This document shows positions 11,901-62,702 of a stretch of DNA of 64,000 nt, in pieces. The notes beneath the pieces are model-generated. The model was not told where the DNA came from. It saw only the letters and a program-made list of their open reading frames with translations, and did not search any database. How positions within the stretch are numbered: position 1 is the stretch's first letter; each line of letters opens with the position of its first letter. The stretch comes from Labyrinthula sp. Ha (Eukaryota > Sar > Bigyra > Labyrinthulida > Labyrinthulaceae): positions 248,001 to 312,000 of the forward strand of contig JAALGZ010000042.1 of the NCBI GenBank assembly GCA_015227615.1, in the 5' to 3' direction. The translations under genes and the position numbers were made by a program.

Positions 11901-14269
11901 TCGATATCTTTATCAGTTTTATCACAGATAACTAAATTTACACAGATGTATATTATATATTAGAAACATATAATAACCAGGTTAAAAATTATGGATCATT
12001 CTATGCTGTAACCTCCCCCCCCCCCCACTGAAGTTCAAGTTATTATTAACTCTTGATTCGCTTAGCGCATAAAATTATTGATCCTAAAAAGTTAGATTAA
12101 TATTTCTATTAGTTGAAACTTTGTCCTATGCAATAATGTCAGGCTTTAACAGGTAAATTTCAAGTTAGAAAAGCGCAGAAAACCAAGAAAAATGTAATCA
12201 TAAGTCAGATTCGAAAAACTCTCTTTGAGTTGATAGTTTGATAAAATCATTCATATCAGAATGTTTCAACAAGTTGTATTGGGTGACAATTTTTAGTTTG
12301 TGAAGAATGGGGTAATTTTGTCAGAAATAAAGATTAATCCTATCTTCCCCTTTCATTTTCGAGTGCAGATACGTTAACCAGACATCTTAAATACATAGAG
12401 GAAAGATAACTAATCTCCAGATACTTTGTTGGCAGCCCAGATAATAAATATCTTAAAGTTTTGTCTGAGGCGACTAAGAAAATTTCTATTATTAGAAATA
12501 GACCATATAATTTCCACATTATTAGAATCCTCTTTTTTGTGGAAACGGAAGAAAGGTGTAAACATTATTAGTTATACAGCTTCTATGGTGGGTTAGATCT
12601 CGCTAATCCACTCTCTTGGGGCTAGTGGTAAAACTATTAAGAGATTGTGTATATCAAGGGGGAAATGCTTCTTATTGATTGAAGAACTCAGGCATGAAAT
12701 ACCATTAAAAAATAGCAAAACAGCTATACCTGTGACTCCTTTTGCTTCATTTAGTCTTTCTTACTGAGAACTCCAGGGTTTTCCAGAGACAAGAATTTTG
12801 TTGATATCATACTTGAAATAATCATGGCATCCAGCGAAGTGATGTTGAATTGGAAACAAATTTATCATCATTACAATGCATTATTTTTCTATGTAATATC
12901 TATTAGCCCACTTATTGTCATTATTGGTATACTTACTCCTATAATTTCATAGTAATTTTTCATTTAATTTTTTACGTGCCACTGCAATTCGTGGAATCAA
13001 ACCTGGTTTGACCTGGAAATTTGGGGCGAGCTTGAGGAGGAAAGAACGGGATAAACTAAAGTAAAACATGGATGATAGGATATGCTTCTGTATCATAGCC
13101 CTGATGAAAAGTCAAAACTCTATTATTGTAACACAGAATTTTTTAAGTAAGAAAAAAAATATAGCAACTAATCCCCATCTGTATTTTTTTGTTTTCCTTG
13201 TAAACTCCCAACGATTCTAAGTCAGTTCTTATTCAGTATTATACTTCAGGTTAATGGCGACTATATAGTTATCTAAATTAGCTAGGATGTATTTTTAAGA
13301 AATGAGGGGGGGGGGTTATTGATCATTTTTATATGGTAAATAGTAAACAAGGTAAGGAACCCTCAAAGAAACCCAAGAACTTAATACCATACATAAAACT
13401 GCAATTTTGGTCAGCTAGGAAGCAATAATGGCAGCAGTGATGTTATATTAATAAACCGTACCTCCAATTGACGCGAGTGGCATTACAAAAAAAAGGTTAT
13501 GACCACAAATCGTGAAGCGAGAGTTCAAACGATACTATGTCTATCGACAGCATTGGCAGTTTGTATGCCTATGCGTTTAATTCCATTGGGCATTTTACAG
13601 AATTCGCTGTATCAATATCTCTGAGGTTTTAGCTCATATATAAAGTATTAATTATAGTCACCTGGCAACGACTCCTCTATGGTTGAAATTTTTTTTTGGT
13701 ATTATATATCTTCTAATATAATGTATTCACCTTGTTTATTGGTTTCTATCAGTGTTTCAGGTTGAGCTCTACTTTATCTGAATATTTAAATTACGGTTGT
13801 TTTACAAATTATATTATTAAATCATCTATTGAATCCAATAAATTTATCTGAAATTTGACAGTTCAAACACATTTTGCATCTAAGGTGAGGATTTATTAGC
13901 CATGTTATTGTAAAGGTTGATGAGGCTCTTATTTTACTATGCTTCCTTTTCTTGTCTTCATGAAATCACTGTGTTGACATCATAACTATAGTCCGTCATA
14001 ATCTTATCAGTTAAGCTAGTACCAAGATGTGGCATCTGCTTTGGGGATTTTTCCAGCTGAAGAACTAACAGATCGCTTTAAATTATACTCTTCCTTTAAA
14101 CAGGAAGGTGGTCTAATATAAGGTAAAATAAAAAGCCCTTACATGTGAGAAAAATCATAAATAATGAAGGGTTTATAGTTCTTATTTTGATTATGATTAA
14201 AGAATTAGGAAACCCATTCTTATCAAATCATTCATATTCAAACTTAGTTATTAACTCGTTTTAAATTAA
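8933..14269. other. Long stretch without a recognised gene
   Basis: No coding similarity was recognised on either strand. It contains an imperfect 59-bp tandem repeat (10341-10469), a run of 12 C (12015-12026) and a run of 10 G (13306-13315). Confidence 0.5.
10341..10469. repeat. Imperfect tandem repeat, unit about 59 bp, just over two copies
   Basis: Units beginning at 10341 and 10401 share the order 'TTATAT-C--AAAGTT-G--TTTTTATTTTT' then 'GATT-AGATTATA', followed by a partial third unit from 10460. The divergence between units is considerable, so the array is old. Confidence 0.65.
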
Positions 14270-14370
14270 TGTTTTAACCAGAGTAAGTTAGAGAACTGGC
14301 AAGTAGTACTCTTTGTAACTAACCTTTAAGCAGAACAAAATACACAGTACTATTTCCAAGGTAGAACAAC
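14270..14370 (+). repeat. 5' LTR remnant of the old copia element
   Basis: Begins TGTTTTAACCAGAGTAAG and matches the start of the 3' LTR (TGTTGTATCCAGAGTAAG at 19081) over about 100 bp, at roughly 75-80% by eye, including the shared block 'CTATTTCCAAG'. Beyond about 14370 I cannot follow the similarity, so the rest of this LTR is lost or too diverged. Confidence 0.7.
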
Positions 14371-17300
14371 AGTTTCAGAGCCTAAGCATCTCCCCCCTTA
14401 TTTCCGCGGTGTCTTTTGATTATTAATGCTAAAAGGATCTTTGGAGCAAAAATATAACATCTTGAAAGATAGAATTATCAAATACAACTTATGATTTAAG
14501 TGAAAACACCTCAGAAGAAGTAGATTATTCTCTAGCTACTCATATGTTTCATTTACCTTCTCAAGTAGTTACTTCTGATAGAAAAGACCAAATTAAGGTC
14601 TTTCTCTCAAACATTTATTTCCTGAGAACTTTTCTCATTCAGGAAGCTAGAAATTATGTATTAATAGTACTTGTATACCATTGTTGTCGTTTAGCTTCGC
14701 TTTATGCTTTGTTTGGTTACTGAATTATCTTGAAAAAGCACACATCTTTACAAAACCAAAACAATACAAAAATAGCTAAATTTAAATATATTAATGACAT
14801 TCCGACGCTTGAAAATCAGAAAATCATATTTAAAAAATGAAAGGAAAGAATTTTAGCTTATTTAGGAAAGAACCATCACTCAATGTTTCTATTGTATGAC
14901 ATTCAACCTTCTTTTCTTCTATCTGACAAGTTGACTTCTGCGTCCGCTATCATTACTTTGCTAGCTTCAAGGTCTATAAAGATGTTATCTGCAGAGGATA
15001 TGAAGACATATGACAAGATTTCAAGCGTCACACACATATCACTAATCAAAATATCTTCGGCCTACAAAACTGTTTTTTTTAACAATATTGTGATTCCATG
15101 CTATGGTTAGGTTCATAAATTTGTTGAAGCTAAAGTGCAGTTTACCATCTCAAAACTATGGATAAAACATGTTTTGAGAAGAACTTTATCGCCCGAACTG
15201 GTACGTTATACAGATTCTAGTAATAATGTATATGAAGGATTCAATAAGATATGTAAACATTACGAAAAAGACACTAAGTTTGCAACAATACCATCAAGAA
15301 GAAAACTCAAGAACATTAAGCTTCACGACCTGAATACTCACATAAAAATATTCAAAAAGTGTTTAGCTCAATACAAAATATACGTTGGTCAAGAAGATGA
15401 AGGAGTTCTTGAAGATTTTATCCGAGATATTACCGATGCTATATTTCATGCTCAAAAATCTATGTTCACTGGAAATAAACTGGATGAAATGTTCTCCTAT
15501 TTTGAAGCAATAGAAGCAAATTTAAGCTTACGAAGCAACAATGTACTCAAATAATGTAATAATAACCCAATAGTACGTACCAAGAACACGAAGTTGCGAC
15601 AATATAAACGAAAAAAAAGTAACTCTAAAAAAATTCCAGTAAGGAAGTGTCACCAGATAAAACACCTGTGCTGGATGGGGTGATAAACCTAGTGACTACC
15701 AAATAGAGGATAGAAGGTGTCACACGTATGATTCAAATCGACATGTTGTCTGTGACTGCGATATTGAAGTGATCAAAGTTAAGAAGGCACACCTAATAAA
15801 GGAGAATTCCCTCAATCAGACACCAAAGATGAAGATTCAGGTGAATAGAATCTTATTGATGATTCAAATGTGTCGTTATTTCCTCTAACAATAAACATCA
15901 AACAGGTTAAACCTATAAATGAAAAATGCAATTGTATATTTAAATCCCCATGCTTATATATATATTACTTGATTCTGAAGCTACCAGACACGTAACCGAA
16001 AAAAAAAATACAAAGCCCTGTCCCCGAATATGACGTCTCAGTAACTAGAGCTTTGTATCATAAAACATTCAACACTATATCTGGGAGCATTGAAGTCGTG
16101 TTACTAAATAACATGTCGTTTACTTTGTCAAATGATGTTTATATCCCATAACTTCAAGAAAATGAAATAATTATCTCTGAATCTAAACTACTTAACGAAA
16201 ACTATGAAATTGTCAAACACTCAAAGAGATGTAGAGTATTGAAGAACCAGTTCACTTTCACAAATATTTCTCACAAGCAGTATCACTTCTTTATTCATGC
16301 AAAACTGAATACAAATAGTAGTCTGTCAATATACAGTTTATCTATTTCTACTTTTGACTTAATACATTATTATATCGAACACACGAATAACGATTATTTA
16401 GGAGCAGAAGGGTTCAAAACTTTAATTCAACAATCATGTGTTAGATGTAATTTAGGAAAAACAGTTTAAAGGAGCAAAGGCAAAGTTATTGAATATGAAA
16501 AATACAAATTATTTCAAGGAACGAAAAATTTTGAGAAGTTTCATATAAATATTATGGGCAGGTTGAATCCAAGTGTGTTAGTATTTAAGTATCTCTTCCT
16601 CGTGGTCCGGAACTATTCACACTTCATCATACATATTCTAGCCAAATCCGAAACTGAAATAGCTTCAAAAACTATCAAGAAGATGGAAAAGATAAAAAAA
16701 AACCTTCAATTTAAACATAAGATGTACATTTAGCTATCAAGACACAGGGTAACAGAAGCTAAACGAACATTGTGAAAAACATGGAATACAGCGAGAGTTC
16801 TCATCAACACACTTCACCTCAGAAAAGGGCAAAGTAGAACGTCAAAACCGCTCCGTGATGACTATGAACAGGACTCTTCCCATCCAAGCAAACGTCAGCA
16901 TGAAATATTAGAACTTCGCTTCGAAACACTCCTGCAAAATTCTGAACTTCAGGAAGAGAAAACATGAACTTTCGCCTAGTCAAATCGTCTATCAAAAGCC
17001 TCCAAATTTCGACAAGATATTATTATTTGGCACTCGTGGCTTTGGTATCCATCATAATAAAGACAAAATTAAAGCGGCCAAAGCCATTCTCTACTTAGGC
17101 AGGGGTGAAGACTCTGGTATACACATCGGTTTAAATCTTGAGAGTAAAAAGATACAACACTTCATAACTGTAAAGCTAGACGAGCTGGTAACCATAAAAA
17201 ACACCTACAAAAAGTTCATCAATATGTTTTGGAAGCAATTATCAGATCCAAGACGGGTAAAGTCCAGTGCGAGATTGATAAAATCCAAAACGAACATGGA

Positions 17301-19080
17301 ACTCTCTTCAGATAACCAGGGTCCATATGATATATATATTCTGATGATTCCAGTGAAGCATCTGATGAGCCAGGGAAGAAGCTTTCGTAAACTTGTTTGG
17401 TTACATCTCCAGTTTCTCACTTCAATTCTCTGGGCAATAGTGAGATTAGCACCGAAAACATTATTCATGGAAAACGTATACGGAAATTAAAAATAAAAGT
17501 TTTCAAGATGAGAACCAACAAGGATATCGATAAGAATGCATTTTCTCCAAGAAACTTCCGCAGCATTGCGATGACACCTGGTGCTGATTACTGGAACACT
17601 GCATATCAAAAATAAATAACCTAGCTGGAACAAACTAGAGACTTTGAAATCATAAAATGGCTAAAGAAACCGGAAGATTTTATTCATTTTGTGAAATATT
17701 TTAAAACGAAACAGCCATAGGAACAAAAATAGATCACCAAAGTTAGAATCTGTGCAAATAATAATACACAGCGGTCACTTTATTATACAAACGATTTAAG
17801 ATTATATTCACCATTGGCTCCATTATTATCAATCCGAGTGTTTATTCTTCATGCAGTGGGTTTTGCTATTCCCATTAGGCAGATGGATATTTCTTCAACT
17901 TTTATTTATAGAAAATTAAAGAAATCGATATATTTACAACTTCAGAAAGGACACAAAAAGGATGTCAACAAGAAAGTGTGGAAATGCCACATATCCATAT
18001 ATGGTTTGCCTCAGGCACCACAAATCTGGTATAAAACGTTAACAAAGAGTCTGATTGTTTTTGATTTAAAAACACCGGTCCATTTAACGCTGTATTTTCA
18101 TAAATGAGGGAAGAAATGAGGACACAGACGTCATACTTATTGTCTATGTCGATGATATTCTATATGCTGGTTGTAAAAATATAATTGAAAACTTTGAAAC
18201 ATTTATGAAGAAACAATACAATATGACATCTAATGTAGCTGTAGATACATATATTGACCTTAAATTGGAACAAAGAGAAGAAACTTGCTTCGTTAACAAT
18301 CGAGAACATATTTTAAATTACAGTTTTCAACACAATATAGATAAGATTCAGAAAAAGATTTATGTTCCTATATCTAATGACCTGTCTAGTGAAAAGAGTG
18401 TAAAGTTGTACAAATCAAAAGTTTACCAACGGATACTTGGTCTTATAAACTATATTTGCTATTATTCCAGCCCAAACCTTTCATTTGCAGTTTACTTACT
18501 AACCACGAAACTAAGTTGTCCTAACTCAAAAACACTTCAACAAGCCAAAGACACACTGACTTATTTATATCTTACAAGTCATTATACGATGAAATACGAG
18601 TTCTTAAAAGATGAAAATAGTTTGATGACCTTGGTTGACAGCTCTCTTAGAAACTCTGAAGACAGAAAGTTCATATTCGGAAATATCATTCTATAAAGCG
18701 AAAACTTATTATTCTATAGGTCCAAAAGGAGCCAACTATTACTCTGGTTTCAACTGAAGCTGAGTATTTAGCATTGAGATTATCTGTGAAAGATTTGAAG
18801 GTTGTTTTCAATTTATTAAGTTGTTTGAGCATTGCGTTTAGTACTCATATTTATTGTGACAATTAAGCAGCTATTATGATGTTGAAGTATGACGCGGTGG
18901 TTGGAAGAAATAGACATCTAAATATAAAATATCATTTTGCGAAGAATGAAGTGAAGGAGATGAACACTGAGGCTCATTATATTTCTACTGTTGAGAATTT
19001 GGCCGATCTATTCACCAACATTTCTAGAAAGAATAATATTAATAATTTCTGCAGTAAGGTGTTTCATGAGTAAGGGAAGA

Positions 19081-19345
19081 TGTTGTATCCAGAGTAAGCT
19101 AGTGGACTGTCAAGTGTTACTCTTTACAACTAACCTTCAAGCAGAACAAATAAACAAAACTATTTCCAAGATGAGACAACAAAAGGTAACAGACATCACA
19201 AACGTCACCATCCTTTACCATCTTAACTTGAGCAACGCAACCATAAACGAAATACCTTCTCAGTTCTATAACCAAGATACCACTAACCACCAATAATATT
19301 CTCAACTTAAATACCAGCACAGCATCCTTCGACCATGTTATTCTA
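19081..19345 (+). repeat. 3' LTR of the old copia element
   Basis: Starts TGTTGTATCC directly after the end of the pol-like region. The first 100 bp pair with the 5' LTR remnant at 14270. The right end is uncertain; I saw no clear CA end with a target duplication. Confidence 0.6.
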
Positions 19346-24200: not shown

Positions 24201-27200
24201 TACCTTTAACAATCTCAACTTTCTTTTTTGACTCTACGGAGACTATTTCCAGTCCTAATACAGAACTCTCTGATGTGTTTTATAGACGGTAACAAACAGT
24301 AGGGTCTCAGCCTACGTTTGATGTTTTTGAAAATGTACGGTTTGATCGTCCAAGTTTATTCTTACCCTCTGGTTATTTGCAATCTGGATTATATGAGTTT
24401 CAAGTAAGTTTACAGATTCGATGCGCGGAAGAATTTTCAGATGTTTATACTGCTGAAATTAGTTTCAATGTAAATTCAAGACCAGCAGGTGGAAAAATAA
24501 CTGTTGGCAAACCACTGGACTCCAATCTGGGTGATTATACATTGTCGACATCTGGACGGATAGACACAGATGGAAATTCTCCTCTCTCTTTTCGTTTCGA
24601 GTACGCTTTTATCTCAATTCCCGAAGGTTCTGTTGAGTTTGAAGTTCCAGGTACAGAGACTTTTCCATTAGAAGATTTTTCGCTTGGAAACACATTAAGT
24701 GTTTTTTTTTGCCTTCACCAATGAAATCTGATCAAAACAAATCACTTGTATTTTTTGCAGTAGCAAGAGATTCTCTAGGCGCTACTTCGCTAAGAACTCA
24801 AGAAAATAGATTCATAGTTCCGCCGACATTTCAATCAAATTTATCCAATCGCTTTAACCAGGCGATTAATGAGAAAATAAATTTTGGTGAAGCGGATGAA
24901 TTGTCTCTTATAGTTTTTGGCACTGGAAATGTTGAAACAGATGATGTTATTTTCCTCCTAAACAGAGCACTTGATTTAACTCTTTTAGCAGAAGAAATTT
25001 TTCGCCAAGAGGGAAGTTTTAATTTGACTGCTTTTTCGCTTGGTGTACAGGGATTGCAACAGATTAGCTACATTCTTGTACTATTCAGTGCAGAGGACTT
25101 AATCGCAGAGGATGCGTTTCAGCTAAATGAGAAGTTAAAAGAGCGCTTTAATGTGTTGGTGAGAGAATATAGTGTGCAGTTAAATCAAAGAAGGATTGAA
25201 AGAGAAAGAGATTCGGATGTAGATCCTTTAGCAGGTGCTGATCTTTTCAGTAGTATTTTTCTGTCACTTGAAAATGCGATAACAAATTTTGTTCAAATTG
25301 ATTTAGTTCTTGTCGAAACATCAGAAAGAGAGATTAGCAGTGCGGTTGAGCGCAGAGTACTAAACCGAATTTTGCAAACTGAATTTGATCCATGTTTATT
25401 TTTATCGAGTGCGAAAGAAAGATTGATTGAACTTGATGTGGAACAAACTGGGGATTTAATACAAGATAGTGGTGAGATTAGAAGGAAGTCTGATTCGATA
25501 TCAGTAACAAGTATAAAAGATAGATGTGATACTTTGGTATCCAGTGTAAAAAAAAATTCACAGTTTAAATTCCCAGAATTATTTTATGCGGCTGCTTCAG
25601 ATAGTGTTTCTTCAATCAACCAATCTGAAACGTATAGTATCATTTCTATTGAATGGGATGACTTAGATTATATTTCAAGTTGCAAAAGAAAAAAAGAATT
25701 TACATTGAGTACTACGCAAATTTTTGACAATATCAGTAGCACGACATCTTCTAAAGATTATCTTAGTGAATATAAATATCCAGGACCACCAAATAGTTTA
25801 TTGAGAAATATTCTTTCATTAGAGTTTATTCAACTGGATACTAAAAATCATATCCCGTTGAATAATATTTCTTCTGCTCAGAGTATTGAAATTCAATATT
25901 CATTTGTGGATATTTTTTCAGAAGAGGAGTTTTATAGTTTTGATATTTGTAGAACAGAAGACGATGTTTGTGGAATAAAACTGAATTATTCAAGTACAAG
26001 AGTATGCGGAGCGTTTTCAGAGGTGAATAAAGATTGGATTCAGGAAGGTTGTTTTGTTCGTACTCAGGATGAAGATTCTGTATCTTGTGTTTGCAATCAT
26101 ACAACTGATTATGCCACGCGGGTATCTTTTAGAAACGATGTAACTGTCTTTTGTGAAGTACGGGATATAAACAACCTTTCAGATACATCAATGTACTTTT
26201 TGGTTGTATTCTTACCTATATTGTGTCTTTTCTTTATGTTTCTTTTTCTATGGGGGAAATCCGGAGATAGAAGTGATGTAGAAAGAGTAAAGCCTTTTGC
26301 AGTTGGTTGTTTAGTTTTACACAAGTTTATTCACCAGAAAAAGAAAAAAGTATATTTTACAATAATTGCCCAAAAGAATAACATATGGAAATTTAGGACA
26401 GAGAAAAGATTGAAGAGAAAGATAAAAAGAAATTATTCTAAACATGTATATTTCTATGCCTTTTTGAGTGCACTGAAAAATGGGCACTCTTTGATAGGAT
26501 TGAATCGGTTTGATCCGTACTTCTCAAGGGCACAGAGAATTGCTGTATTTGCAGGTGTCGTATTTGCAACAATGTTTGCATCTGTTTTGTTGTTTACTCT
26601 GGCGTGTGTTGAGAGCTATACAAGCATCCTATTTGTACCCTCCGTTGCGTTTCTTTCTGATTTTGTTGGATCTCTTCTCAAAAATATTCCTTCGAGTAGT
26701 ATTTGTATCATCTGCAAACATAATTGGTTCTTCTTTCGACACTGTTGCTAACTCGATAAAGATTTTACATCGAGTTGAAAATGTGGATGGAGTTCAAACT
26801 GATTCTGATGTATGATTAGTTTTAGCTTATAGAGCACTTCTGAACACACAGAGAGTCTTGGAAACATCTTCTAAATCAAGTAAATTAGCATGAAAAAAAT
26901 CTATTCCAGAGATTGAACCACATTATGGTGGGTATTTTGAAAAATATGAAGGTGAAGAAATAGAAAGAAAACCTGTTAGTATTACTGCATCTAAGAGTTT
27001 GAGACCTGTCCAGGCGAATATGAATTATAGGGAGACATTTGCATATGCGAAAGTTTGTGCAGCTGAATCTCCGGGAGTGTGGAAAAGTAATGTAGAAATT
27101 GTAGAAGCATATCCAGCAATATTTTCAGGACAAAATAGAATAAGTGGTGAATGTTTGTACACGCCGTCATGGGAAAAACTCTTGCTGTTCGGTGACAGAA

Positions 27201-33600: not shown

Positions 33601-33804
33601 CCAAGGTTCAAGCAGTTTATCTGAAGTATTTAATTCGATCTACCCTCTAGTATGGGGTAGTACTTCGAAGACGCGAATATGGTGCTTAATACAAGATTTA
33701 TATACTAGAATGAAAGTTTTCGCAACTATGCATAGCTATATAAAAAACATTCTTCAAACTTCTATCTGCTTCAACCTTTAAAAGCCAAAACAAAATGCAT
33801 CACT
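27665..33804. other. Gene-poor stretch
   Basis: Apart from the RT trace at 30490-31000, I recognise no gene. Around 30130-30280 the minus strand has a lysine/glutamate-rich coiled-coil-like segment ('NKISNAVKKTVISLNELYFK') that may be part of the same decayed element. Confidence 0.4.
30490..31000 (-). mobile_element. Reverse-transcriptase remnant, probably non-LTR (LINE-like)
   Basis: The minus strand reads 'GVQGHFLSFFLFLLNMNYI', resembling the LINE RT block 'GvrQGdplSp.LFnl.m..l'. About 30 residues later comes 'FRYLAFSDDVVALCYMDN', resembling the 'YADD.vl' active-site block with the first aspartate pair present. The frame stops at 30772. A second minus frame at 30696-30493 may be the following region. 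No endonuclease, poly-A tail or target duplication was found, so the identity rests on these two blocks. Confidence 0.45.
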
Positions 33805-33876
33805 TCCCGAAGAGGGGCTCGAACCCTCGACCATTAGGTTAAGAGCCTAACGCTCTACCAACTGAGCTATCCGGGA
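33805..33876 (-). tRNA. tRNA-Lys (anticodon CTT)
   Basis: The minus strand folds as a full cloverleaf. The acceptor TCCCGGA pairs with TTCGGGA (one G-T pair). The D arm is GCTC...GAGC, the anticodon stem TTAGG/CCTAA encloses loop CTCTTAA with anticodon CTT, and the T arm is GAGGG/CCCTC with loop TTCGAGC. There is no intron and no encoded CCA. Internal pol III promoters are present: A box TAGCTCAGTTGG and B box GGTTCGAGCCC. T-rich sequence follows the 3' end (about 33787-33797) as a likely terminator. Ends are certain to about 1 nt. The 5' end lies 67 bp from the divergent start codon of the sulfotransferase gene. Its anticodon arm matches the primer-binding site of the copia element at 52.5-57.2 kb. 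Confidence 0.95.
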
Positions 33877-33943: not shown

Positions 33944-36093
33944 ATGAAGAAAACACGTTGTGAAATATCTAAGAGTACTAGTACACATTTCCTTTAGAAT
34001 TATTTCCTCAGCTCTGTTGTTGTTGTTGCTTCTTTTCTTTACAACCGCCTTCTTAAACTCAAACCTCACCACTTTCCTTTTTCCTGTGAAGCAAATCGAA
34101 GAAACTGCGTCCCTTCCTGCCACTTCGCAGTTTCCCCAGTTAAAACCTAGGTCAAGAACTCATTCCAAAACCTGCAAAGACGCTTTAAATGTTGATCTAT
34201 TATTTCCACATGTAATTTCCTGTATTACTTTAAATTTTAGGTTAATAAAGCAGGTGGTAGAACACTGGAAGCAACCTTTGGTGAAAATCTTCCTCGTTTA
34301 ACTCAATATAAATTTATTTCCTCTATTCAACGGTCAAGAAGGCATAAATACACAGTTTCTTCTGGACATAGATATTTGGGAGAAATATTAAGAAGAAGAA
34401 ATTGTTTGAGTTTTAGAAATAAAAGTCCAACAAGAAAACAAGTTCTTAGTGCTGTTGAGAACTGTAAAGGTAAAAAAAATAGTATTTGCCAGCAGTGGAT
34501 TTATAGCCTGAGAGACCCGATAATGAGAACATTGTCATCATTTTATACAATAACTGGAAGAACAAAGAATTTTGTGCACTTTAAGTGCGATCCAGAAGGT
34601 CTTATTTCCAAGAGAATGAGGAATATTTCATTTACTTTTGAAGAATTTTCCAATTTTGAAACAGCTGAAAGAAAAAAATGCTATTTGCATAATCAAAATT
34701 TACATCTGAAATATTTAACTTATGGTTTAATCGATGACAAGAGCTCAGATGAGGAAAAGCTGCAGTTTGCAAAAGAAATTTTACAGAGATTAGACTGGTT
34801 TTCTATTCTTGAATATGCTGAAGAATCACTTGATCTATTTGAACCAGAACTTGGTCTTGAAATTTTAAGCTATCATTCTGCATTTAACTATAACAAATAT
34901 GAAAAAGAGCTGTCAAAGTATTCACAAAAAGCTAGAGATGTACTTTTTGAACTTAATTATCTTGATATTGAATTATATAATTTTGCGAAGCAATTACTTT
35001 TTGCAAGATTAGATAGAATAAAACCTGAAAAAGAAATATATGAATGTTCAAGAAGAGTTATTTGTTGGGATAAAATGTCACCTATACCTGGAGAAATAGT
35101 TACAGTAACAGATTTAACTGGATCAAAGAAACAAAACACTTTGTGCAGCAAAGTTGGAGGTTGTTTAAACCAAAATAAAAAAAAGAAACAAGTAGATCTA
35201 AGCATTTTTGAGCGGAGAAAAGAATGTATAGCAAATTTTCTTATCATTGGAACAAGAAAAGGAGGATCTACAAGTTTGTATATGTATTTAAGCAAGCACG
35301 AGCAAATCATACCTGTCAAGGTTAATATAGAAAGAGAGGAGCAGATTGGGGAATTATTTTATTTTCGAGATGCGAAAAAAAAATCAAGAAAAGGTTATAA
35401 TGAAGCTTTTTTCAATGAATTTAAACGAGATCAAAATATTTTTGATCCAAGTTTTTATTTAACAGGAGAAAGCTCTGTAGATCTTTCCGCAAACTTAGAA
35501 GCACCAAAATTGTTAAAAACTATGTGCAAGAATAGAATCAGAGTTATATATTTAGTAAGAGATCCAGTTGAAAGAATAATTTCTCAGATGAAAATGCGAC
35601 AAAGAAATAAAAAGTTTCCTTTTAATAAAGGCAAAGTTAGTTTGGAAAAAGCCATAGAAAATGATTTATTTCAGTTTAAGAAAAAGATAAAGATTTCCAA
35701 GAATGAGGAAAGTTTATTTAGGCAGGGTTATGAAAATAGTATCTGGGAATCACTTTATGTTGTCCACTTAGAGAGATGGTTAAAATATTTCCCCAAACAG
35801 GATATTCTAGTTCTCAAAAGCGAAGATTTTTTTCAAGACACAAAAAATGTACTTTATTTTTTATGCTTAGTATTTAGGTTTTACAGACAACTTTTGATCA
35901 TCTCACTCTAGATTCTTCATCAATTAATTTCACAACTTTAGTTAATGAAAAATACAATCAAGCTCCAGATTCAGATACGGCAATATCTTCATCTCTTAGA
36001 AGGGAACTCAATGAACTATTCTTGCCATATAATCAAGCACTTGAGAGAAAAACCAAGCTAAATCTTTCTTCGTGGAACATATTCGAAGTTTGA
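33944..36093 (+). CDS. Type II membrane protein with two tandem sulfotransferase domains (copy 1)
   Basis: Gene model of four exons: 33944-33974, 34012-34211, 34241-35848 and 35878-36093, with introns of 37, 29 and 29 nt, all GT..AG. It codes for 684 aa ending in TGA. Residues about 11-25 form a leucine-rich signal anchor (Golgi type II topology). Domain 1 resembles the uronyl/HS 2-O and 6-O type (Sulfotransfer_2). It has the PAPS 5'-phosphosulfate loop 'HVNKAGGRTLE' split by intron 2 at residue 77/78, 'SSGHRYL' after it, the 3'-phosphate block 'WIYSLRDPIMRTLSSFY' (about 163-179), and the C-terminal 'YLDIELYNFAKQLLFARL'. Domain 2 resembles Sulfotransfer_1 (HS3ST/NDST type). It has 'FLIIGTRKGGSTSLY' (GTRKGGS about 414-420), 'TGESSVDL', 'RVIYLVRDPVERIIS' (about 511-525), and the end block 'LFLPYNQALERK' in exon 4. 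Both domains keep their cofactor motifs. The likely role is sulfation of glycans in the Golgi; the acceptor is unknown. The start ATG is shared in context with copy 2. Confidence 0.85.
34723..34887 (+). repeat. 165-bp block identical to 45143-45307 (inverted)
   Basis: Within exon 3 of the sulfotransferase genes the two copies match base for base over 165 bp by eye. The neighbouring coding sequence differs frequently, including at third positions. This is the pattern expected of gene conversion. Confidence 0.85.
35810..35978 (+). repeat. 169-bp block identical to 44058-44226 (inverted), includes intron 3
   Basis: The end of exon 3, the whole 29-nt intron 3 and the first about 100 bp of exon 4 are identical between the two sulfotransferase copies. 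In contrast, introns 1 and 2 differ at many positions between copies. This is a second likely gene-conversion tract. Confidence 0.87.
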
Positions 36094-42200: not shown

Positions 42201-43053
42201 CAGCTGCATGGTTGACTGAAGCTTACAAGAAGTTTTACTTAGGTCCAGCTCCGTAGAAAAAATCCTTTACTATGTTGAAACCATCATGTTTGTCCTCGCT
42301 TTTCCAATATCTAAGAGGAAGTAGGTTGGCATATATCAGAAATTAGTACCAGTCTCTGCTACAAATTATCTTACTACTGTAAAATCTGTCCCGTTGTCTG
42401 TTAGTAAAATTCTACTATTGAACCAAAAATTTCTTCGTAATGCACCAAAATTGTTGCAAAACAACCGAAATTGTCTTTTTCTTAAGCAGGAAAGGCATTG
42501 ATGATATTTCCAGTTAAATGATAGTAATAATGTGCGAGGATTTCTCATCAAAACTTTCAGCCTCCCTGTAATGTGTATACGAATATTTCAGTATTATTAA
42601 GTTGATACTGTTTTCTTCTTCTTACCAATTATGTTTCGTCTTAGTCCCATCATTAACAAACAACTACACAGTGATAGTTTAGTCGTTATTAGTTCTTAGG
42701 CTTATTACATTAATTTCGTAACACACACTTCCTAAAAAAAGTCACATTTCACTTTGTAAATCTATTTATTCAGATTATATATGGGATCTCATCAACAACT
42801 GAAATAAAACGCAAATATAAAGATACGTTCCGCAAAATCTGGGCCATATGCAACCAGAAGGCATTATGTAGAATACAAAAACTTGAATATAAATGCAAAA
42901 TTCTTTGTCAGTATAAATTGCACCTTTCCAAACTGTTTGTCTATCATGTTTGTTTTCTTGGAGTTATTGCATGCAGTAATAACTAAGCGCAAGAATACCC
43001 AAAATTCGAATCATATGATACTTGTCTTCAAGGCTTCGGGGCCAAATTAAGAA
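36206..43053. other. Gene-poor stretch between sulfotransferase copy 1 and TAM41
   Basis: No intact gene recognised. Minus-strand traces of a retroelement lie at about 41690-42560 (listed). Around 39700-39930 (minus) a protein-like frame exists without a family match. The 36700-36790 region has short direct repeats of 'ATTGTCCATGC'. Confidence 0.4.
41690..42551 (-). mobile_element. Retroelement remnant with integrase-like motif
   Basis: The minus-strand frame 42551-42366 contains 'NSRILLTDNGTDFTVV', resembling the second catalytic block of retroelement integrases (TDNGteF). A second minus frame, 41889-41692, reads 'IVLPKNGRESTKVCIYF' and may be polymerase-related, but that is weak. No terminal repeats were found. 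It is a fossil with many breaks; the family (copia or Ty3) is undecided. Confidence 0.35.
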
Positions 43054-43953
43054 ATGAATAAGATATTGCTGGAAGATCTAATACAAAACACTCTTCCTTT
43101 AAAAAACACCACTTGGATTGGGTTTGGATATGGTTCATCAATATTTAAACAATCAAACACAGAAACGGATCAGAAAATGATTGACTTCATAGTAGCAGTT
43201 CCAAACACGTTGGATTTTCACAAAGAAAATCTGCAACAAAATAAAAACCATTATTCTGGATTAAAATATTTAGGTCCTAGCTTAATAGCAAAAATTCAAT
43301 CTTCCTCTGCGAAGATTTATTTCAATCCTTTAATTAAGCCTTCATATAAACCTCAAACCTTTATTAAATATGGCATAACGGATGTAGATTCTCTGCTTGA
43401 CGATTTAATTGACTGGAGATCATTTTACTTGGCAGGAAGATTACAAAAACCTGTTAAAATCTTAGGATCAAGAAAAAATAATTTAGTTCATGAAGCTTTA
43501 GATAAGAATCTTTTGTCCGCTCTTTCTCTAAGTTTTCTTCTTGAACAGAATAATGTTACGGAAGAACAGTTGTATAGAAGAATCTGTGGATTAAGTTACG
43601 TAGGAGATATAAGAATGAAATTTGCAGAAGATCAAAATAAAGTAAAAAATATAGTTGAAAATAATTTTGAGCATTTTCATAAGTTATACATTCCTCGTAT
43701 TAGATACTTAGAACTATGTGGAATAATCAAACGGGAAAACAATTTTTTTTCTAAAGAGCTCCCACAGAAACTCTGGGATAATTTACCTCAAAGCTTTCAG
43801 CAGGATCAACACACTGCTCAACTTGAAACGCGGCTCCGAAGCTTGAATAGGAAATTTAGTGCACAGCAAACACTAAAGGGTTTTTTTACAAGTGGGTTAT
43901 CGAAATCTTTCACATATGGGGTTAGAAAGGTCTCAAGGAGATTCAAGCTTTGA
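43054..43953 (+). CDS. TAM41: Mitochondrial CDP-diacylglycerol synthase / translocator assembly protein Tam41
   Basis: Intact single-exon frame of 299 aa, ATG to TGA. Tam41/Mmp37 is a matrix-side inner-membrane enzyme that makes CDP-diacylglycerol from phosphatidic acid and CTP for cardiolipin synthesis. Diagnostic blocks in order: the nucleotidyltransferase signature 'GFGYGSSIFKQ' (residues 23-33) with 'MIDFIVAVPN' (42-51), 'HYSGLKYLGPSLIAKIQ' (66-82), 'AKIYFNPLI' (86-94), 'IKYGITDVDSLLDDLIDW' (104-121), 'LAGRLQKPVKIL' (126-137), 'GLSYVGDIRM' (about 179-188), and the C-terminal 'TLKGFFTSGLSKSFTYGVRK', all typical of the family. An N-terminal targeting presequence is not obvious, so the product is near the short end of the family range. 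Gln is coded only by CAA/CAG. The last 11 bp overlap the end of the convergent sulfotransferase copy 2. Confidence 0.96.
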   Translation: MNKILLEDLIQNTLPLKNTTWIGFGYGSSIFKQSNTETDQKMIDFIVAVPNTLDFHKENLQQNKNHYSGLKYLGPSLIAKIQSSSAKIYFNPLIKPSYKPQTFIKYGITDVDSLLDDLIDWRSFYLAGRLQKPVKILGSRKNNLVHEALDKNLLSALSLSFLLEQNNVTEEQLYRRICGLSYVGDIRMKFAEDQNKVKNIVENNFEHFHKLYIPRIRYLELCGIIKRENNFFSKELPQKLWDNLPQSFQQDQHTAQLETRLRSLNRKFSAQQTLKGFFTSGLSKSFTYGVRKVSRRFKL

Positions 43954-46083
43954 AAATATTCCAGGAAGAAAGATTTAGCTTGGTTTTTCTCTCAAGTGCT
44001 TGATTATATGGCAAGAATAATTCGTTGAGTTGTCTTCTAAGCGATGAAGATATTGAAGTATCTGAATCTGGAGCTTGATTGTATTTTTCATTAACTAAAG
44101 TTGTGAAATTAATTGATGAAGAATCTAGAGTGAGATGATCAAAAGTTGTCTGTAAAACCTAAATACTAAGCATAAAAAATAAAGTACATTTTTTGTGTCT
44201 TGAAAAAAATCTTCGCTTTTGAGAACAAGAATATCCTGTTGGGGAAAAAATCTCAACCACCTCTCCAAGTGAATAACATATAGTAATTCCCAGATACTAT
44301 TTTTATAACTGTGCTTCAACGAAATTCTTCCATTCTCAAATAATCTAAGCTTTTGAAATTGTATTAAATCATTTTCTATGGCTTCTTCCAAACTAATTTC
44401 ATTTTTAGTGAACGGAAACTCTTTTTTCTTTTTTCGTATCTTCATGTTAGATATGAGACTTTCAACTGGGTCCCGGACTAAATAAATTACTTTTATTCTA
44501 TTCTTGCACATGGTTTTTAATAATAATGGTGCTTCTACGTTTGTGGCTAGATTTACAGAACTTTCTCCTGTTAGATGAAAACTAGGATCAAAAATATTCT
44601 CATCTCGTATAAATTCCTTTATAAAAGCTTCATTATAGCCTTTTCTTGATATAGATTCAGCATTTTGAAAATAAAATAATTCCCCAATCTGCTCTCTTTC
44701 TATATTAAGCTTGATGGGTACGATTTGCTTGTGGTTACTTAAGTACTTATACATAGTAGTAGACCCTCCCATTCTCGCTCCAATGATAAGAAAACTTGCA
44801 ATACATTCCTTTCTATGCTCCATAATGTTTAAATCCACTTGTTTCATCTCGTATGATTGTTTCAAACAACCTCCAATCCTGCTGCACAAAGTGTTTTTCT
44901 TTCTAGAGCCAGTCAAGTCAGTTATGGTAACTGTTTCTCCAGGTTTAGGTGAGGTTTTATCCCAGCAGATAACTCTTTTTGAACACTCAAAAACTTGTTT
45001 ATCAGGTTTTATTTTATCTAATCTTGCAAAAAATAATTCCTTCGCAAAATTATATAGTTCAACATCAAGATAATTAAGTTCAAAAAGTACTTCTTTTGCT
45101 TTTTGTGAATACTTTGTTAGATCCTTCTCATATTTGTTATAATTAAATGCAGAATGATAGCTTAAAATTTCAAGACCAAGTTCTGGTTCAAATAGATCAA
45201 GTGATTCTTCAGCATATTCAAGAATAGAAAACCAGTCTAATCTCTGTAAAATTTCTTTTGCAAACTGCAGCTTTTCCTCATCTGAGCTCTTGTCATCGAT
45301 TAAACCAGAAGTTAAGAACTTCAGGTGTAAATTTTGGTTATGTAAAAAGCATTTTTTTCTTTCTTTTATATCGAAACTAGCAAACTCCTCAAAGGAGAAT
45401 GAAATATTTCTCATTTTGTTGGCAATCGGACTCTTTGCATCACATTTAAAGTGATCATCATTATTCGTTCTTCCTGTAACTGTATAAAATGAAGATAAAC
45501 TTCTCATTATAGGGTCTCTTAAACTAAAAATCCACTGTCTGCATACTGCATCTTTATAACCTTTACACTTCTCTATTGCATTAAAAACTTCCTTCTTTGT
45601 TGGGATCTTCCTTTTTAAATCCAGACAATTCTTAACGGCCAATATTTTCCACAAGTTTCTATGTCCATTAAATACAGTGTATCTATGCTTTCTTGACCTT
45701 TGAAGTGACGAAATATATTTATATTTAGCATGAAGAGGATGATTTTCATCAAAAGTTGATCCAAGCGTTCTACCACCTGCTTTGCGTACCTAGAAGTTAA
45801 TGTAAGTAAGAAATGTACGTGAGGAAATAGGAGTTGAACATTCAACGCGTCTTTACAGGTTTTGGGATGAGTTCTTGGCGTTGGGTGTAAGCTATTTAAA
45901 GATGAATTTCCAGTGTGCGATGCCGTTCCTTTGATTTCATGATTTGAAAAAAGGAAAGAACGAAAATTCGAGTTCAAGGAGATTGTCATGAGAAGAAGAA
46001 CCAACAAGAAGATAGCTGAATAAATAACTTTAAATGAAAAATGTACAAGTACTTTTAGTAACTGAGGAACTTTCTTTTTTCAT
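43943..46083 (-). CDS. Type II membrane protein with two tandem sulfotransferase domains (copy 2)
   Basis: Paralogue of the gene at 33944, on the opposite strand. Exons are 46083-46053, 46015-45819, 45789-44188 and 44158-43943. Introns are 37, 29 and 29 nt at the same three positions. It codes for 681 aa ending in TGA. The signal anchor begins after MKKESSSVTK ('TIFLLVLLLMTISL'). Domain 1 has 'HVRKAGGRTLGSTF', 'FNGHRNLWKIL' and 'WIFSLRDPIMRSLSSFY', ending 'YLDVELYNFAKELFFARL'. Domain 2 has 'FLIIGARMGGSTTMY' (the basic residue of the 5'-PAPS loop, K in copy 1, is M here), 'LTGESSVNL' and 'KVIYLVRDPVESLISNM'. The proteins are roughly 75-80% alike. The K-to-M change in the second PAPS loop could weaken domain 2. 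The stop codon lies inside the 3' end of TAM41, so the two transcripts must overlap. Confidence 0.85.
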
Positions 46084-52499: not shown

Positions 52500-52504
52500 T
52501 AATC
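52500..52504. repeat. Target-site duplication, left copy
   Basis: TAATC directly outside the left LTR. It is identical to TAATC at 57237-57241 outside the right LTR, so this is a 5-bp duplication as expected for copia integration. Confidence 0.9.
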
Positions 52505-52680
52505 TGTTCCATGAACAGGCGAGTTGAGAGTTATTTTTTTATCCTTTAAAATTATGTCTAATTCCGTCCGAGAAGTTTTACCGAGCAGATTCCCCGAACA
52601 GTTTCTGTCCACGCGTGTCATTTGCTTCGAAGATATTTCTTTCGTTTCTTGTCTCCTCTTTTCCTCTCTTGGTTTCAACA
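52505..52680 (-). repeat. 3' LTR of copia A (176 bp)
   Basis: TG...CA ends. It contains two units of a 13-bp repeat (like TTTCTCCGAACAG), against about six in the 5' LTR. The 52-bp length difference between the LTRs equals four units. Confidence 0.93.
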
Positions 52681-52692
52681 CCCCCCCGTCTC
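52681..52692 (-). other. Polypurine tract of copia A
   Basis: The minus strand reads GAGACGGGGGGG directly before the TGTTG start of the 3' LTR, the position and composition of a plus-strand priming site. Confidence 0.75.
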
Positions 52693-54883
52693 TCCAGAAC
52701 ATTTCTTTGGAACGCTGCAAAAGCTGGAGAGATCTTCGTCATGCCATCAGCCCAGTTTTCTGGCCCTGGAACGTAATCCACTCTGAGAATTCCCTGCTGC
52801 ACCCATTGTTGTAAGGCAAAGAATTTACTCCCTTGGTGTCTTGTCAGTTTTGTTGGTGCCGTACCATTGACAATGTTTACCACGGCCTTGTTGTCCGACA
52901 ACATCACCACAGGCCAAAGAGATTTGCAAAACAAGTCTTCAAGAATGTGGCCTACGCTTTTGAGCTCTCGAGCACAATCGTAAGCTGCAAAGAACTCAGC
53001 TTCGCTGGATGACGTTGCCACCCACGCGAGTTTTTTTGATCGCCAATGGACCAAATTGCCATTAAAAAAAAGTAAGAAACCCCCTGTACTTTTGAACTTT
53101 TTAGGATCATCAGCAAAAGCAAAGTCCATGTAGGCAACCACTTCCCACTCATGTTGTTCCCATTTCCTGTACTTCAAACACAAATGCTTCGTCTTCATCA
53201 GGTAAGCTACAATCCGTTTCCTAGTTCTCAGGACTTCCTTCGTCCCGTCATGAAGTTTTCGAGCAATCTTGTTGACTGCAAAAGCGACATCTGGTCTAGA
53301 CAATCCTGCGATGTAGTTGAGTTCACCGAAGATCTGTTGTAGTTTTCTCACCTAGGACAGTCTGATGGAATCTTCTCTCCACTTCAAGTTTGAAATCATC
53401 GGCATGTCAAACAATCTGCTAACTTGGTATTTGATTCCCAACTCAGTCAACATCCCGTCCTGGTGCAGTTCCAACTCTTGGTCATTGTGTGTTAACTCCA
53501 ATCCCACAAACTTGTTGACCGAATTCGTACGCTTCACCTTGAACGTGGCCAGTACAAATTTCTCACACTTCTCCAAAGCACTCCAGCTTTTACTGCCAAA
53601 CAGGAAACCATCAACGTAGAGAAGTAGGTAAACATCTTCTAATCGACTTCTTCCCTTTCGAACGAACAACGTCGGCGATCTCATCAATGGTTCCAGCCCG
53701 ATCTTTTTGATGCTGTTCTTAAAATGAATGTACCACACTCTTCCTGCTACTGCTAGACCGTACAAGCTCGCAAGGCATTTGTACACAAGATCCTTGTTGT
53801 CCTCTTCCCTTGCAGGATGTCCAGAGGGTAGCTCAAGAAAAACAGGATTCTCTAGGCGCCCGTTCAAGTAAGCGCTAGGGCAATCCCCTTGACGAACAAA
53901 GTAACCCTTTGACTTCATGATGCTCAAGAACAATCTCATCTCCATGGTTCCAGCTGCAGGGCTAAAGACCTCCTCTGGCATGTCTTGTTAAAGATCTCCC
54001 CTCGCTGCTAACCGGACCTTTAATTTTCTTTCTCCGGAAATGTTGTCCACTTTTTCAGTCAAAACTTCCACAAAGGGGAGACTTGAACATCGCTTGGTCG
54101 AGACACCACCTGTAGTTCTCCAATGTTCTCTAGCTTCTTGATCTCACGCAAGTAGGCCTCTTTCCAGTCTCCATTGCTTTTCACCGCTTCCTGGTAATTT
54201 CGAAACCCTCGCTGTTCACGAGCCCCCAGTGCCACCTTGTAATTGAACAGACATTTTGCCAGTGCTTTGAACACCAAAGCTCCCGACCGAAGTTTTGTCG
54301 GAAGAATGTTGTCTGTCGAAATGTCACTCCGGCTTCTCTCTTCTTCCGTCGTGTTCAGCCCAACACCCTCGGTTCCACTTTGTTCTTCCGCTCCTCTTTG
54401 CAAGTCTACCTCTGACCCAGTGTTTTCCGTGACCTCCCACGCAACTTCTTTCTCGCCCCCTTCAACTTTGACTGGTGTTACCACCCCCGTGTTTGTGACA
54501 TCAACTGGATCAAACTCAAAACCGTCTGTCACTTCGTCACTCAACTGGTCAAACAAACACTGATCAATCTTTGGCTGCTTTGCTAGAAATGACGTTTCAT
54601 CACAAAAGAAGGTTGCTGTGTTGAAGATTCTGCCATTGTCTTCTCGTTGCACAATGTACCCAACTGAGTCTTCTGCGTACCCTAGGAAGCGAACGGGTAC
54701 TCCTGTCTTGTCTAACTTCCGTCTGGCTTCTCGTGCAACATGGGCGTAGGCTCGCACACCAAAAACACGAAGACGCTTCAGATCTGGCTTTTGCTGGAAC
54801 AGCACTTCACAAGGACTGGTCAATTTGGTACCATGCGTCAAGTTGTGCGCAGACACTGCCGCCTTTCCGGCAAAAGTCCAGAA

Positions 54884-55203
54884 TACCTGTTAGGAACTTG
54901 TACTCAACGGTTAAATACTTAAAAATAAGTATTATTCTACTTCCAAACGAAAAATAAATATCCTCTTTTTCTTTTGCTTTTCCTTTTTGTTTCCTTTTTG
55001 TTTTGCTTTTATTCACCTCTTAGAGATACAAACTGTTCTTCATCTTCCTGAGAATTTCCAAACGCTCTACTTCTTGAGAGTTACCAAACGTTGTTTTTCT
55101 TGAGAATTACCAAGCGTTCCACTTCTTGTTTGCACCTTTTCAGAGCTTTCTTATGACTTGACTTTTAAACACCACTCGACTTTTCATACTTCTTAACAAT
55201 CCC
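54884..55203 (-). mobile_element. Solo LTR (54889-55198) inserted in copia A, with target duplication
   Basis: A 310-bp block with TGTTA...TAACA ends interrupts the integrase/RT region. It is flanked by ATACC and ATCCC, a 5-bp target duplication with one difference. It contains three tandem 26-bp units at 55050-55127 (like GAGAATTACCAAACG). No matching LTR occurs elsewhere in this window, so the donor family is another LTR element. It inserted after copia A did. Strand is inferred from the surrounding element and is not certain. Confidence 0.82.
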
Positions 55204-56994
55204 AAACCCATCTCCGCTTGAAACAAAAGACTGCGCAAGTTTTCCAATACAATCCGGTTGTTGCTTTCCTCGCGACCATTTAACTCGTGCACGTAAGGTA
55301 CAGACGTTTCATGGGTAAGTCCATTCTTGTCGCGAAAATCGTCAAACCTCTTGTTACAAAACTCGGTACCATTATCCGTACGAATCAGTCGTAGCTGTCC
55401 TGGGAACATCCTGCCCAATTTCAGCAAAAGACCAGAAAGTAGATCTGGGACTTCAGACTTTTGAGTGAAAGGTAAAAACCAAAGGAACCCACTCCTGGCG
55501 TCTCCAACAACCAATGCACCTCTTTCCCGATCCACTGACAATTTGTAAGGTCCCACACAGTCAGCTACTAAAAGTTCTAGAAGTTGACGCTTTGCTGGTG
55601 ACTTCTTCTTACTCACCGGGGTTCGGTGCATCTTTCCTACCATGCATCCGGTACAAACAGATTTTTCCACCGAACCAGTCAACTCTTCCACACCTTTCAG
55701 CGTATTTTCTAGGCGACTCTGTCCACAGTGATTGAGGCGACAGTGCCACACATGAGCCGACAACATGGAAACCTTTGGAACACGAGTTGTTTTCACTTTC
55801 ACAGGAAACAAGTCCCCATCCAACGTTGCCTTGTACAAGATCGAGGTTCCTTGTCGAATTTCTGCAGACGTTTCAGAGAACATGACACTGAGCCCTTTCC
55901 TCACCAAAGCAGAAACAGACAGCAAATTCTGAGCAGCTGGCCAGAAAGCAACATCGTTCAGTCTAACTTGTAGTTCATTTTCTAGTTCCAATTCCACAGT
56001 TCCCACTTGATCTTAAGACACAAAACCATTCGTAGTCAACACTTGTTCCGGTTCTACCTTCTCAATCTTCGTGAACCATGCTAGACTTCCACACACATGG
56101 TTAGTCGATCCAGAATCTAGGAAGAAACTCCCAGAAACATCACTCACTTTAGCACACATCCATGATTGTTGTTTTCGCTTCTCCCCTGATGCTTCTTTGT
56201 CTGGTGTGTTGTTCAAAGAACACTCACGTCTGAAATGACCCAGTTTCTTACACTTGTGGCACCTGAGCTTTGACTTGTCCACTGGCTTCTTTTTTGTTTT
56301 CCTTGACAACAACACCTTTTGTTCCTGCCTTTCTTTCTTGAGCTGCTTTCGACTTGCGTCAAGCAACCCTGTGTCGATCAAGTAGTTGAGAACACCATCG
56401 TAGGAATAAATCCAGACATCCTGTTCATCATTTTCAGCATTTTCCACATGCTCTTTCAACCCATGCGTGATGGGAGCTAGTGATCGTGGTAGTTTTTCCA
56501 AAAATTGCATTGACAAAGCTTTGTCACTGAAAACCCCATCCAAGCTACGCAGTTGTGCCACCAATGCTTGGTACGTCGTCATGAAGGTGAAGTAATCATG
56601 TTGAAATGTCAATTTTGTCAAGTCCGCACGAATTCTCGTCTTTTGACTCAAAATCGAACCAACAAACATTTTTCTCACAAGCTGAAACATTTGATCTGCC
56701 GATTCCAGATGTCTTACGGCTACAGACAACTCCGATTCCAAGCTTAAAATCATGTCACGTTTGCAGATTGCTCTTTTCTTTGCTCGAGTTTCTTCCGTGT
56801 CACCTTCCGAGAGGACAATTTCCGCCCCACTACTTAAATGGTCCCACAAACTCAGGGCTTCAAAATGAAACTGTAGCTGCGACATCCATTCGTAGATGTC
56901 GCCTCCTGCTGCCAATTTCTTAAACTTCGGTAATCTACTCTCATTTCCACTCGCCATGCTCAGTTTTTTCCTCTTTTTTTTTTTTTTTTTTTGC

Positions 56995-57008
56995 TTAGGC
57001 TCTTAACC
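56995..57008 (-). other. Primer-binding site of copia A (complement of tRNA-Lys anticodon arm)
   Basis: Directly inside the 5' LTR the plus strand reads TTAGGCTCTTAACC, identical over 14/14 nt to the anticodon stem-loop of the tRNA-Lys(CTT) gene at 33805-33876 (tRNA positions 27-40). It therefore pairs with the middle of the tRNA, not its 3' end, as in Drosophila copia with its cleaved initiator tRNA. Confidence 0.88.
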
Positions 57009-57236
57009 TGTTCCACGAACAGGCGAGTTGAGAGTTATTTCTTGTCCTTTTTAATTAATTCTAATTCCGTCCGAGAAGTTTTACCGAGCAGTTTCTCCGA
57101 GCAGTTTCTCCGAACAGTTTCCCCGAACAGTTTCTCCAAACGGTTTCTCCGGTCCTGTTTCTGTCCACGTGTGTTATTTGCATCAAAGATACTTCTTTCG
57201 TTTCTTGTCTCCTCTTTTCCTCTCTTGGTTTCAACA
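57009..57236 (-). repeat. 5' LTR of copia A (228 bp)
   Basis: TG...CA ends. It is the same as the 3' LTR apart from scattered substitutions and about four extra 13-bp units at about 57080-57160. The end nearest the primer-binding site carries a small inverted repeat, CTGTTC-CAC-GAACAG. Confidence 0.93.
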
Positions 57237-57969: not shown

Positions 57970-58405
57970 TCAATTTTTCACAAACCTCCTTTTTTCACAA
58001 TTAAGAATTAAAACACGAAAAACAAGTCGAACTATTAACAGCTGAAGTGATGCCTCTGTCAGATGTATTCACAGCTGGGAAGCTATCAGACAGAGTAACT
58101 AGTTTCACAAACCTTAACTGTAATCACGGGTAACTGCAGAGGTTATTCTACTACCTGTATCAACTCTTAGTTTCTAGAGCAACATAAATTGCACACTAAA
58201 GCAAGAAAGAAGTTCTACCGAAACTGCATGCTGAGGTGGCGACCGGGCAGGACGAAACACAAATAATACAACAACAACTTCTAGCCGAAGTTCTCCACAA
58301 GAATTAACCAAAGTGCCAAGCTGAACCAGCTGAGACTGTGCCCAAAATATGCACAAAACGAAATACCGTGAATCCGCAAATTAACACATGTATTAATTTC
58401 CAACA
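57970..58405 (-). repeat. 3' LTR of copia B (about 436 bp)
   Basis: The LTR begins TGTTGGAAATTAATAC on the minus strand right after the polypurine tract. The stretch 57985-58070 matches the 5' LTR piece at 62610-62700. The outer (left) end is placed by alignment only and could be off by several bases. Confidence 0.75.
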
Positions 58406-58417
58406 GTCCCCCGTGGA
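58406..58417 (-). other. Polypurine tract of copia B
   Basis: The minus strand reads TCCACGGGGGAC next to the start of the 3' LTR. Its G-rich core matches that of copia A. Confidence 0.65.
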
Positions 58418-62578: not shown

Positions 62579-62592
62579 TTAGGCTGTTACCC
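62579..62592 (-). other. Worn primer-binding site of copia B
   Basis: The plus strand reads TTAGGCTGTTACCC next to the 5' LTR, matching 12 of 14 nt of the tRNA-Lys(CTT) anticodon arm. Same primer choice as copia A. Confidence 0.7.
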
Positions 62593-62702
62593 TGTTTTTT
62601 TCGGAAAGCTTCTTTTTTTCACAACTAAGAATTAAAACACGAAAAACAAGTCGAACTGTTCATGACTAAAGTGATGCCTCTGTCAGAACTATTCACAGCT
62701 GC
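62593..62702 (-). repeat. 5' LTR fragment of copia B
   Basis: About 110 bp of the inner end of the LTR, matching 57970-58080 with around 10% difference. Similarity stops near 62702. Confidence 0.75.

Follow-up and report, generated by a model that had tools for sequence, protein, structure and literature searches.

Described Golgi sulfotransferases and the tandem gene of Labyrinthula

Heparan sulfate (HS) 6-O-sulfotransferase 3 (HS6ST3) and the 2-O-sulfotransferase (HS2ST) are single-module enzymes, and the partner of the sulfotransferase domain in NDST1 is a deacetylase. To our knowledge, all characterised glycan sulfotransferases carry one sulfotransferase domain each. Here, we describe gene A of Labyrinthula sp. 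Ha, which encodes two different sulfotransferase modules in tandem behind a probable N-terminal anchor. The gene is located in a stretch of 64,000 nucleotides (assembly GCA_015227615.1, contig JAALGZ010000042.1, positions 248,001 to 312,000 of the forward strand), hereafter called the window, to which coordinates refer unless another contig is given. A search of the open-licence PMC literature yielded no description of a Golgi protein with two sulfotransferase modules, and none of the words "bifunctional", "two domains", "multidomain", "dual" and "fused" appears in the searched parts of a review on these enzymes (PMC11625862). The proteins themselves are already public.

The first module (M1) resembles HS6ST3 (5t03) and HS2ST (3f5f) in its fold, its match to PF03567, its loop lysine and its PxxRxxS motif. 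Judging from its position, a histidine ahead of the 3'-phosphate strand is presumably common to M1 and both enzymes as well. However, M1 shares only 16-20% identity with them in structural alignments and is followed by a four-cysteine linker and a second sulfotransferase. The second module (M2) resembles HS3ST (1t8t, 3bd9) and the sulfotransferase domain of NDST1 (1nst, 8ccy) in its fold, its match to PF00685, its loop lysine and a glutamate at the presumed base position. The identity to these enzymes is 18-26%, and the partner of M2 is another sulfotransferase. The layout is not that of NDST, because the N-terminal partner in gene A scores with PF03567 and is predicted to fold like HS6ST. The features of gene A and of its inverted paralogue, gene B, are as follows.

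33944..36093, plus strand: gene A, whole coding span, 684 aa, 4 exons (from splicing and the EukProt model P0001)
33944-33974, plus strand: gene A exon 1
33975-34011, plus strand: gene A intron 1, 37 nt
34012-34211, plus strand: gene A exon 2
34212-34240, plus strand: gene A intron 2, 29 nt
34241-35848, plus strand: gene A exon 3, 536 codons, open throughout
35849-35877, plus strand: gene A intron 3, 29 nt
35878-36093, plus strand: gene A exon 4
33959..34070, plus strand: gene A N-terminal hydrophobic anchor (probable), residues 6-30 by hydropathy, helix 10-27 in the structural model; intron 1 inside the span
34173..35023, plus strand: gene A M1, PF03567, HS6ST/HS2ST-type sulfotransferase; intron 2 inside the span
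35024..35218, plus strand: gene A linker with four invariant cysteines (C348, C354, C381 and C387 of P0001) in 8/8 full-length proteins
35219..36090, plus strand: gene A M2, PF00685, HS3ST/NDST-type sulfotransferase; intron 3 inside the span
43943..46083, minus strand: gene B, inverted paralogue, 681 aa, same four-exon layout; lysine of the M2 loop for 3'-phosphoadenosine 5'-phosphosulfate (PAPS) replaced by methionine

Splicing of genes A and B gave the product lengths of 684 aa and 681 aa that had been proposed in an earlier, sequence-only reading of this DNA. The introns of 29 nucleotides assumed there apply to introns 2 and 3 of gene A, but not to intron 1. The EukProt model P0001 (686 aa) differs from the spliced product of gene A only around intron 1 (31 versus 37 nucleotides). 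We prefer the longer intron because gene B has a 37-nucleotide intron at the same place and in the same phase. Residue numbers refer to P0001 unless stated otherwise.

Two sulfotransferase modules in one protein

With a Pfam cut-off of 22 bits for both families, the whole protein P0001 matches PF03567 with 32.2 bits (best stretch 166-328) and PF00685 with 57.9 bits (412-631); the values for the whole protein of gene B are 27.7 and 47.0 bits, respectively. Exon 3 of gene A by itself matches both families. Since a single exon holds the greater part of both modules, the fusion does not depend on splicing or its prediction. PF03567 and PF00685 cross-match, and the exon was therefore cut into an M1 and an M2 piece, which were scored separately. 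The M1 piece reached 24.6 bits with PF03567 for gene A and 27.6 bits for gene B, and the M2 piece 55.3 and 45.1 bits with PF00685. Thus, neither module owes its score to the other half of the protein. In NCBIfam, no match over the cut-off of this database was found for four proteins.

The predicted structure of the gene A protein matches HS6ST3 over residues 55-343 and HS3ST3/NDST1 over about residues 388-686. Among the 50 matches listed by VIA-align, those to M1 stand at ranks 16, 17, 20 and 21, and the others are matches to M2. Moreover, when PDB sequences were searched with profiles of the family, the first half found HS6ST3 (1.4e-12; matched over the later portion of M1, without the loop) and the second half HS3ST5 (1.4e-10). 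The profiles, the fold matches, the shared exon and the six full-length proteins from other sources described below thus support the central claim of the sequence-only reading, namely that one anchored protein combines two sulfotransferase modules of different kinds. The fold search also agrees with the proposed order, a 2-O/6-O style module followed by one of the HS3ST/NDST style, and the predicted model appears to contain the two separate folds that had been expected. The motifs quoted in that reading are present in the sequence, and both regions, rather than one alone, score as sulfotransferases.

Conserved residues, linker and anchor

The alignment of the eight full-length proteins contains 47 invariant columns in M1, 43 in M2, eight in the linker and one before M1. 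K82, H122, R170 and S178 of M1 and E489, R519, S527 and H588 of M2 are present in all eight, and K419 of the M2 PAPS loop in seven, the exception being gene B with methionine. The PxxRxxS motif of M1 (P172, R175, S178) is found in 7/7 proteins compared. Judging from its position, H122 may be the equivalent of the histidine base of HS2ST and HS6ST. In seven of the eight proteins, both modules contain the PAPS-loop lysine, the arginine and serine for the 3'-phosphate and the presumed histidine or glutamate base. Outside the A/B pair, the seven compared proteins share 32-54% identity per module. The relevant parts of the above-mentioned review name the loop lysine, the PB serine and the histidine or glutamate base as functional residues, as well as PxxRxxS for PF03567 (PMC11625862).

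The four linker cysteines are invariant (8/8). By reading, similar cysteines follow M1 in the M1-only models of Hondaea, and the linker may therefore have come with M1. At a Kyte-Doolittle threshold of 1.6, an N-terminal hydrophobic stretch is present in seven of the eight full-length proteins (gene A, P0002, P0005, P0012, P0013, P0014 and P0020). That of gene A is a probable type II signal anchor.

Relatives with the same layout

Three protein searches led to the identification of 21 different proteins at an E-value of 0.001 or better. The searches rely on short exact words, and in two of the three the best 7,996 and 7,989 candidates were scored. Given this scope, tandem proteins may also exist in other lineages. 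The modules were assigned using the family's own profiles, with a leave-out procedure for the full-length proteins in which genes A and B were left out together. Both modules are complete in eight of the 21 proteins, namely P0001 and P0002 (genes A and B), P0005, P0011, P0012, P0013, P0014 and P0020. The two-domain layout, for which a search of related genomes had been suggested, therefore occurs in six full-length proteins that do not come from this genome. P0012 is labelled as a complete open reading frame (ORF) on an MMETSP transcript, and P0011 comes from the thraustochytrid Hondaea fermentalgiana (Labyrinthulomycetes). The latter protein (851 aa, 36% identity to gene A) agrees with gene A in its modules and their order and has all nine cofactor and base residues listed above, but its deposited name, "Heparan sulfate glucosamine 3-O-sulfotransferase 3A1", fits the second module only. 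The name "HS 3-O-sulfotransferase 3A1" on a tandem protein should be taken as a warning, as it describes half of it.

Among the remaining proteins, P0004 contains M1 and the beginning of M2, and six have M1 without M2 (P0003, P0006, P0007, P0015, P0016 and P0021). P0003 is the gene model of a broken third copy (see below), and the contigs of P0006 and P0007 are short and may truncate these two proteins. P0015 and P0016, deposited as "Heparan-sulfate 6-O-sulfotransferase 2" and "3", and the hypothetical protein P0021 are Hondaea models in which, by reading, M1 is followed by a cysteine-containing tail, of which P0016 keeps the first part only. P0010 is a weaker single of the M1 type, and P0008, P0009, P0017, P0018 and P0019 are M2-type singles. 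P0003, P0004 and P0007 stay below the PF03567 cut-off and P0006 matches no Pfam family; M1 of these four proteins, as well as of P0005 and P0020, was identified with the profile built from the family itself.

For seven proteins, the trees of M1 and M2 agree in topology. When P0020 was added, it joined P0012 in the M1 tree (support 56) and P0005 and P0011 in the M2 tree (support 96). The module trees fit a single old fusion that would have been passed on as a unit. Scans with two short patterns gave 12 pattern matches in viral contigs and 39 in prokaryotic genome contigs without any relative among them, an absence that is weak evidence.

Gene B, a third copy and selection

Gene B (46083-43943, minus strand) lies outside the span 33944..36093 of the sequence-only reading, which covers gene A. 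Its product is identical letter for letter to P0002. Genes A and B share 83.5% identity at the DNA level (2,061 aligned columns) and 72% at the protein level. In M2 of gene B, the position of K419 is occupied by methionine and R524, the arginine of PxxRxxS, by serine. The statement that both modules keep their cofactor motifs thus holds for gene A but not for gene B, and it appears that cofactor residues can disappear from one module and persist in the other. An open frame of the TAM41 type (PF09139, 3.5e-84; 43051-43953, plus strand) is convergent with gene B, and the coding ends overlap by 11 nucleotides.

The ratio of non-synonymous to synonymous substitution rates (dN/dS) between genes A and B was calculated according to Nei and Gojobori with our own script and without a significance test; codon ranges refer to the 684-aa product. 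The overall value is 0.31, with 0.55 in codons 1-66, 0.24 in 67-242, 0.08 in 243-300, 0.22 in the linker, 0.31 in 406-612 and 0.14 in 613-684. Codons 241-280 and 601-640 do not differ between the two genes and intron 3 is identical in both, stretches that look like gene conversion. A third tandem copy is located on the same contig (C91:54500-58000), about 225 kb from gene A. Its reading frame is broken between M1 and M2 and contains stop codons, and its DNA identifies it as a pseudogene.

Likely role and alternative explanations

The product of gene A would be a Golgi-type enzyme that is anchored in the membrane in type II orientation and carries two tandem sulfotransferase modules, both of them catalytic and dependent on PAPS. 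M1 would belong with HS6ST and HS2ST and have a histidine as its base, and M2 would belong with HS3ST and NDST and have a glutamate. The related sources identified here, the named one being a labyrinthulomycete, would have received the two modules already fused, and the most likely acceptor of the enzyme is a sulfated polysaccharide of the wall, scales or matrix of these protists, on which it would sulfate two different positions. We consider this reading as a whole to be probable, although by no means certain. It builds on the sequence, the two predicted folds, the conservation of cofactor and base residues, the N-terminal hydrophobic stretch, the shared layout and the module trees of seven proteins. 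From these observations, we infer that both modules are active, that the enzyme resides in the Golgi, that its acceptor is a polysaccharide and that both sulfations occur on one chain.

Regarding the acceptor, parts of one study report that the sulfated polysaccharides of labyrinthulomycete walls contain galactose and xylose, or fucose, and that wall elements are found in the Golgi (PMC11642839), and in parts of another study the scales are termed Golgi-derived polysaccharide (PMC12221091). What speaks for an identity as an HS 6-O- or 3-O-sulfotransferase is fold and sequence similarity. A search of the same genome for the C5-epimerase (PF06662), in which introns were ignored, gave no match at an E-value of 0.001, and the controls matched in two of 14 genomes, both prokaryotes. 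The NDST deacetylase region (PF12062) was not matched in the same genome either, nor in any of the 14 control genomes. GT64 and GT47, the domains of EXT-type enzymes, gave seven and three domain matches, respectively. In view of these search results, gene A is not called an HS enzyme, and its acceptor is more likely to be a polysaccharide of the wall, scales or matrix. The tandem protein is a candidate for an enzyme that sulfates the walls of thraustochytrids and related protists.

Several observations weigh against the tandem enzyme as outlined here. Three Hondaea models (P0015, P0016 and P0021) have M1 without M2, and in P0005 and P0020, PF03567 matches best within M2. The arrangement of the modules in the predicted model is uncertain (pTM 0.53), P0011 lacks a stretch over the hydropathy threshold (peak 1.29), and both EukProt models carry an annotation edit distance (AED) of 1.00, which we take to mean that they are without supporting evidence. 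Moreover, constraint is uneven, with a dN/dS value of 0.62 in codons 300-345 that was not subjected to a significance test. Finally, the losses in M2 of gene B and the pseudogene copy may indicate that M2 or the whole enzyme is dispensable in this organism.

The sequence-only reading had also suggested that two sulfates could be added in sequence to one glycan. It is conceivable, but rather doubtful, that the modules, held by the four-cysteine linker, act in sequence on one growing chain and thereby generate a fixed two-position pattern on a scale or wall polysaccharide. A version of the tandem enzyme that differs in this last step is somewhat less likely still: the modules would act on different acceptors, for instance on a glycoprotein glycan and a wall polysaccharide, and would be fused for co-expression or co-localisation without acting sequentially. 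The existence of stand-alone relatives of M1 (P0015, P0016, P0021) and of the M2 type (P0008, P0009, P0017-P0019) and the lack of confidence in the modelled arrangement are in line with this idea. However, the invariant cysteines of the linker and the conserved order suggest a fixed arrangement, unless the linker belongs to M1 alone. A natural fusion of the two main types of Golgi sulfotransferases would offer a test of whether linking enzymes can fix the order of sulfation.

We regard it as unlikely that only one module is catalytic, while the other, be it M1 or M2, keeps the fold and mainly binds or scaffolds the carbohydrate substrate. M2 of gene B could be such a case, because it has lost the loop lysine and the PxxR arginine while the gene is still open, with a dN/dS value of 0.31 against gene A in the codons concerned (406-612). 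However, all nine cofactor and base residues are kept in the seven other full-length proteins in spite of the low identity of the modules, which argues against this reading. Lastly, the idea that two neighbouring sulfotransferase genes were joined by an error of gene prediction or assembly is hardly credible and was rejected, because, although the EukProt models are ab initio predictions (SNAP) with the AED given above, one open exon extends over both modules, a second copy is present in the window, the order is shared by the six proteins from other sources and P0012 is labelled as a complete ORF on a transcript. The shared exon and P0012 likewise speak against two halves that are separate transcripts or genes, as far as sequences can tell.

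Other sulfotransferase genes and neighbouring elements

The same genome contains another sulfotransferase fusion, a 958-aa open frame on contig C66 (L054:2081-4954, minus strand) with GT61 (PF04577) and Sulfotransfer_2 (PF03567). A 620-aa open frame on contig C24 (L051:1439-3298, minus strand) combines an aspartyl/asparaginyl beta-hydroxylase domain (PF05118) with Sulfotransfer_1. PF00685 has 44 matches in the genome (contigs C111, C2, C62, C66, C103 and others), 26 of which have E-values of 2.7e-26 or better. The open frames of these 26 are 232 to 353 aa long, and several are clustered on C111. They form an expanded single-domain family, and three of them have internal stops.

In the window, a tRNA-Lys(CTT) gene (33804-33876, minus strand) ends 67 bases before the start codon of gene A on the opposite strand, and a large frame that resembles a membrane protein and contains a GPS motif (PF01825) is located at 24643-26748. 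Two retrotransposon-like units with matching end repeats and, by reading, gag/pol-like frames are present at 52500-57236 and 57974-62701, and a further pair of direct repeats of about 100 bp flanks open frames at 14269-19181 that are, by reading, pol-like.
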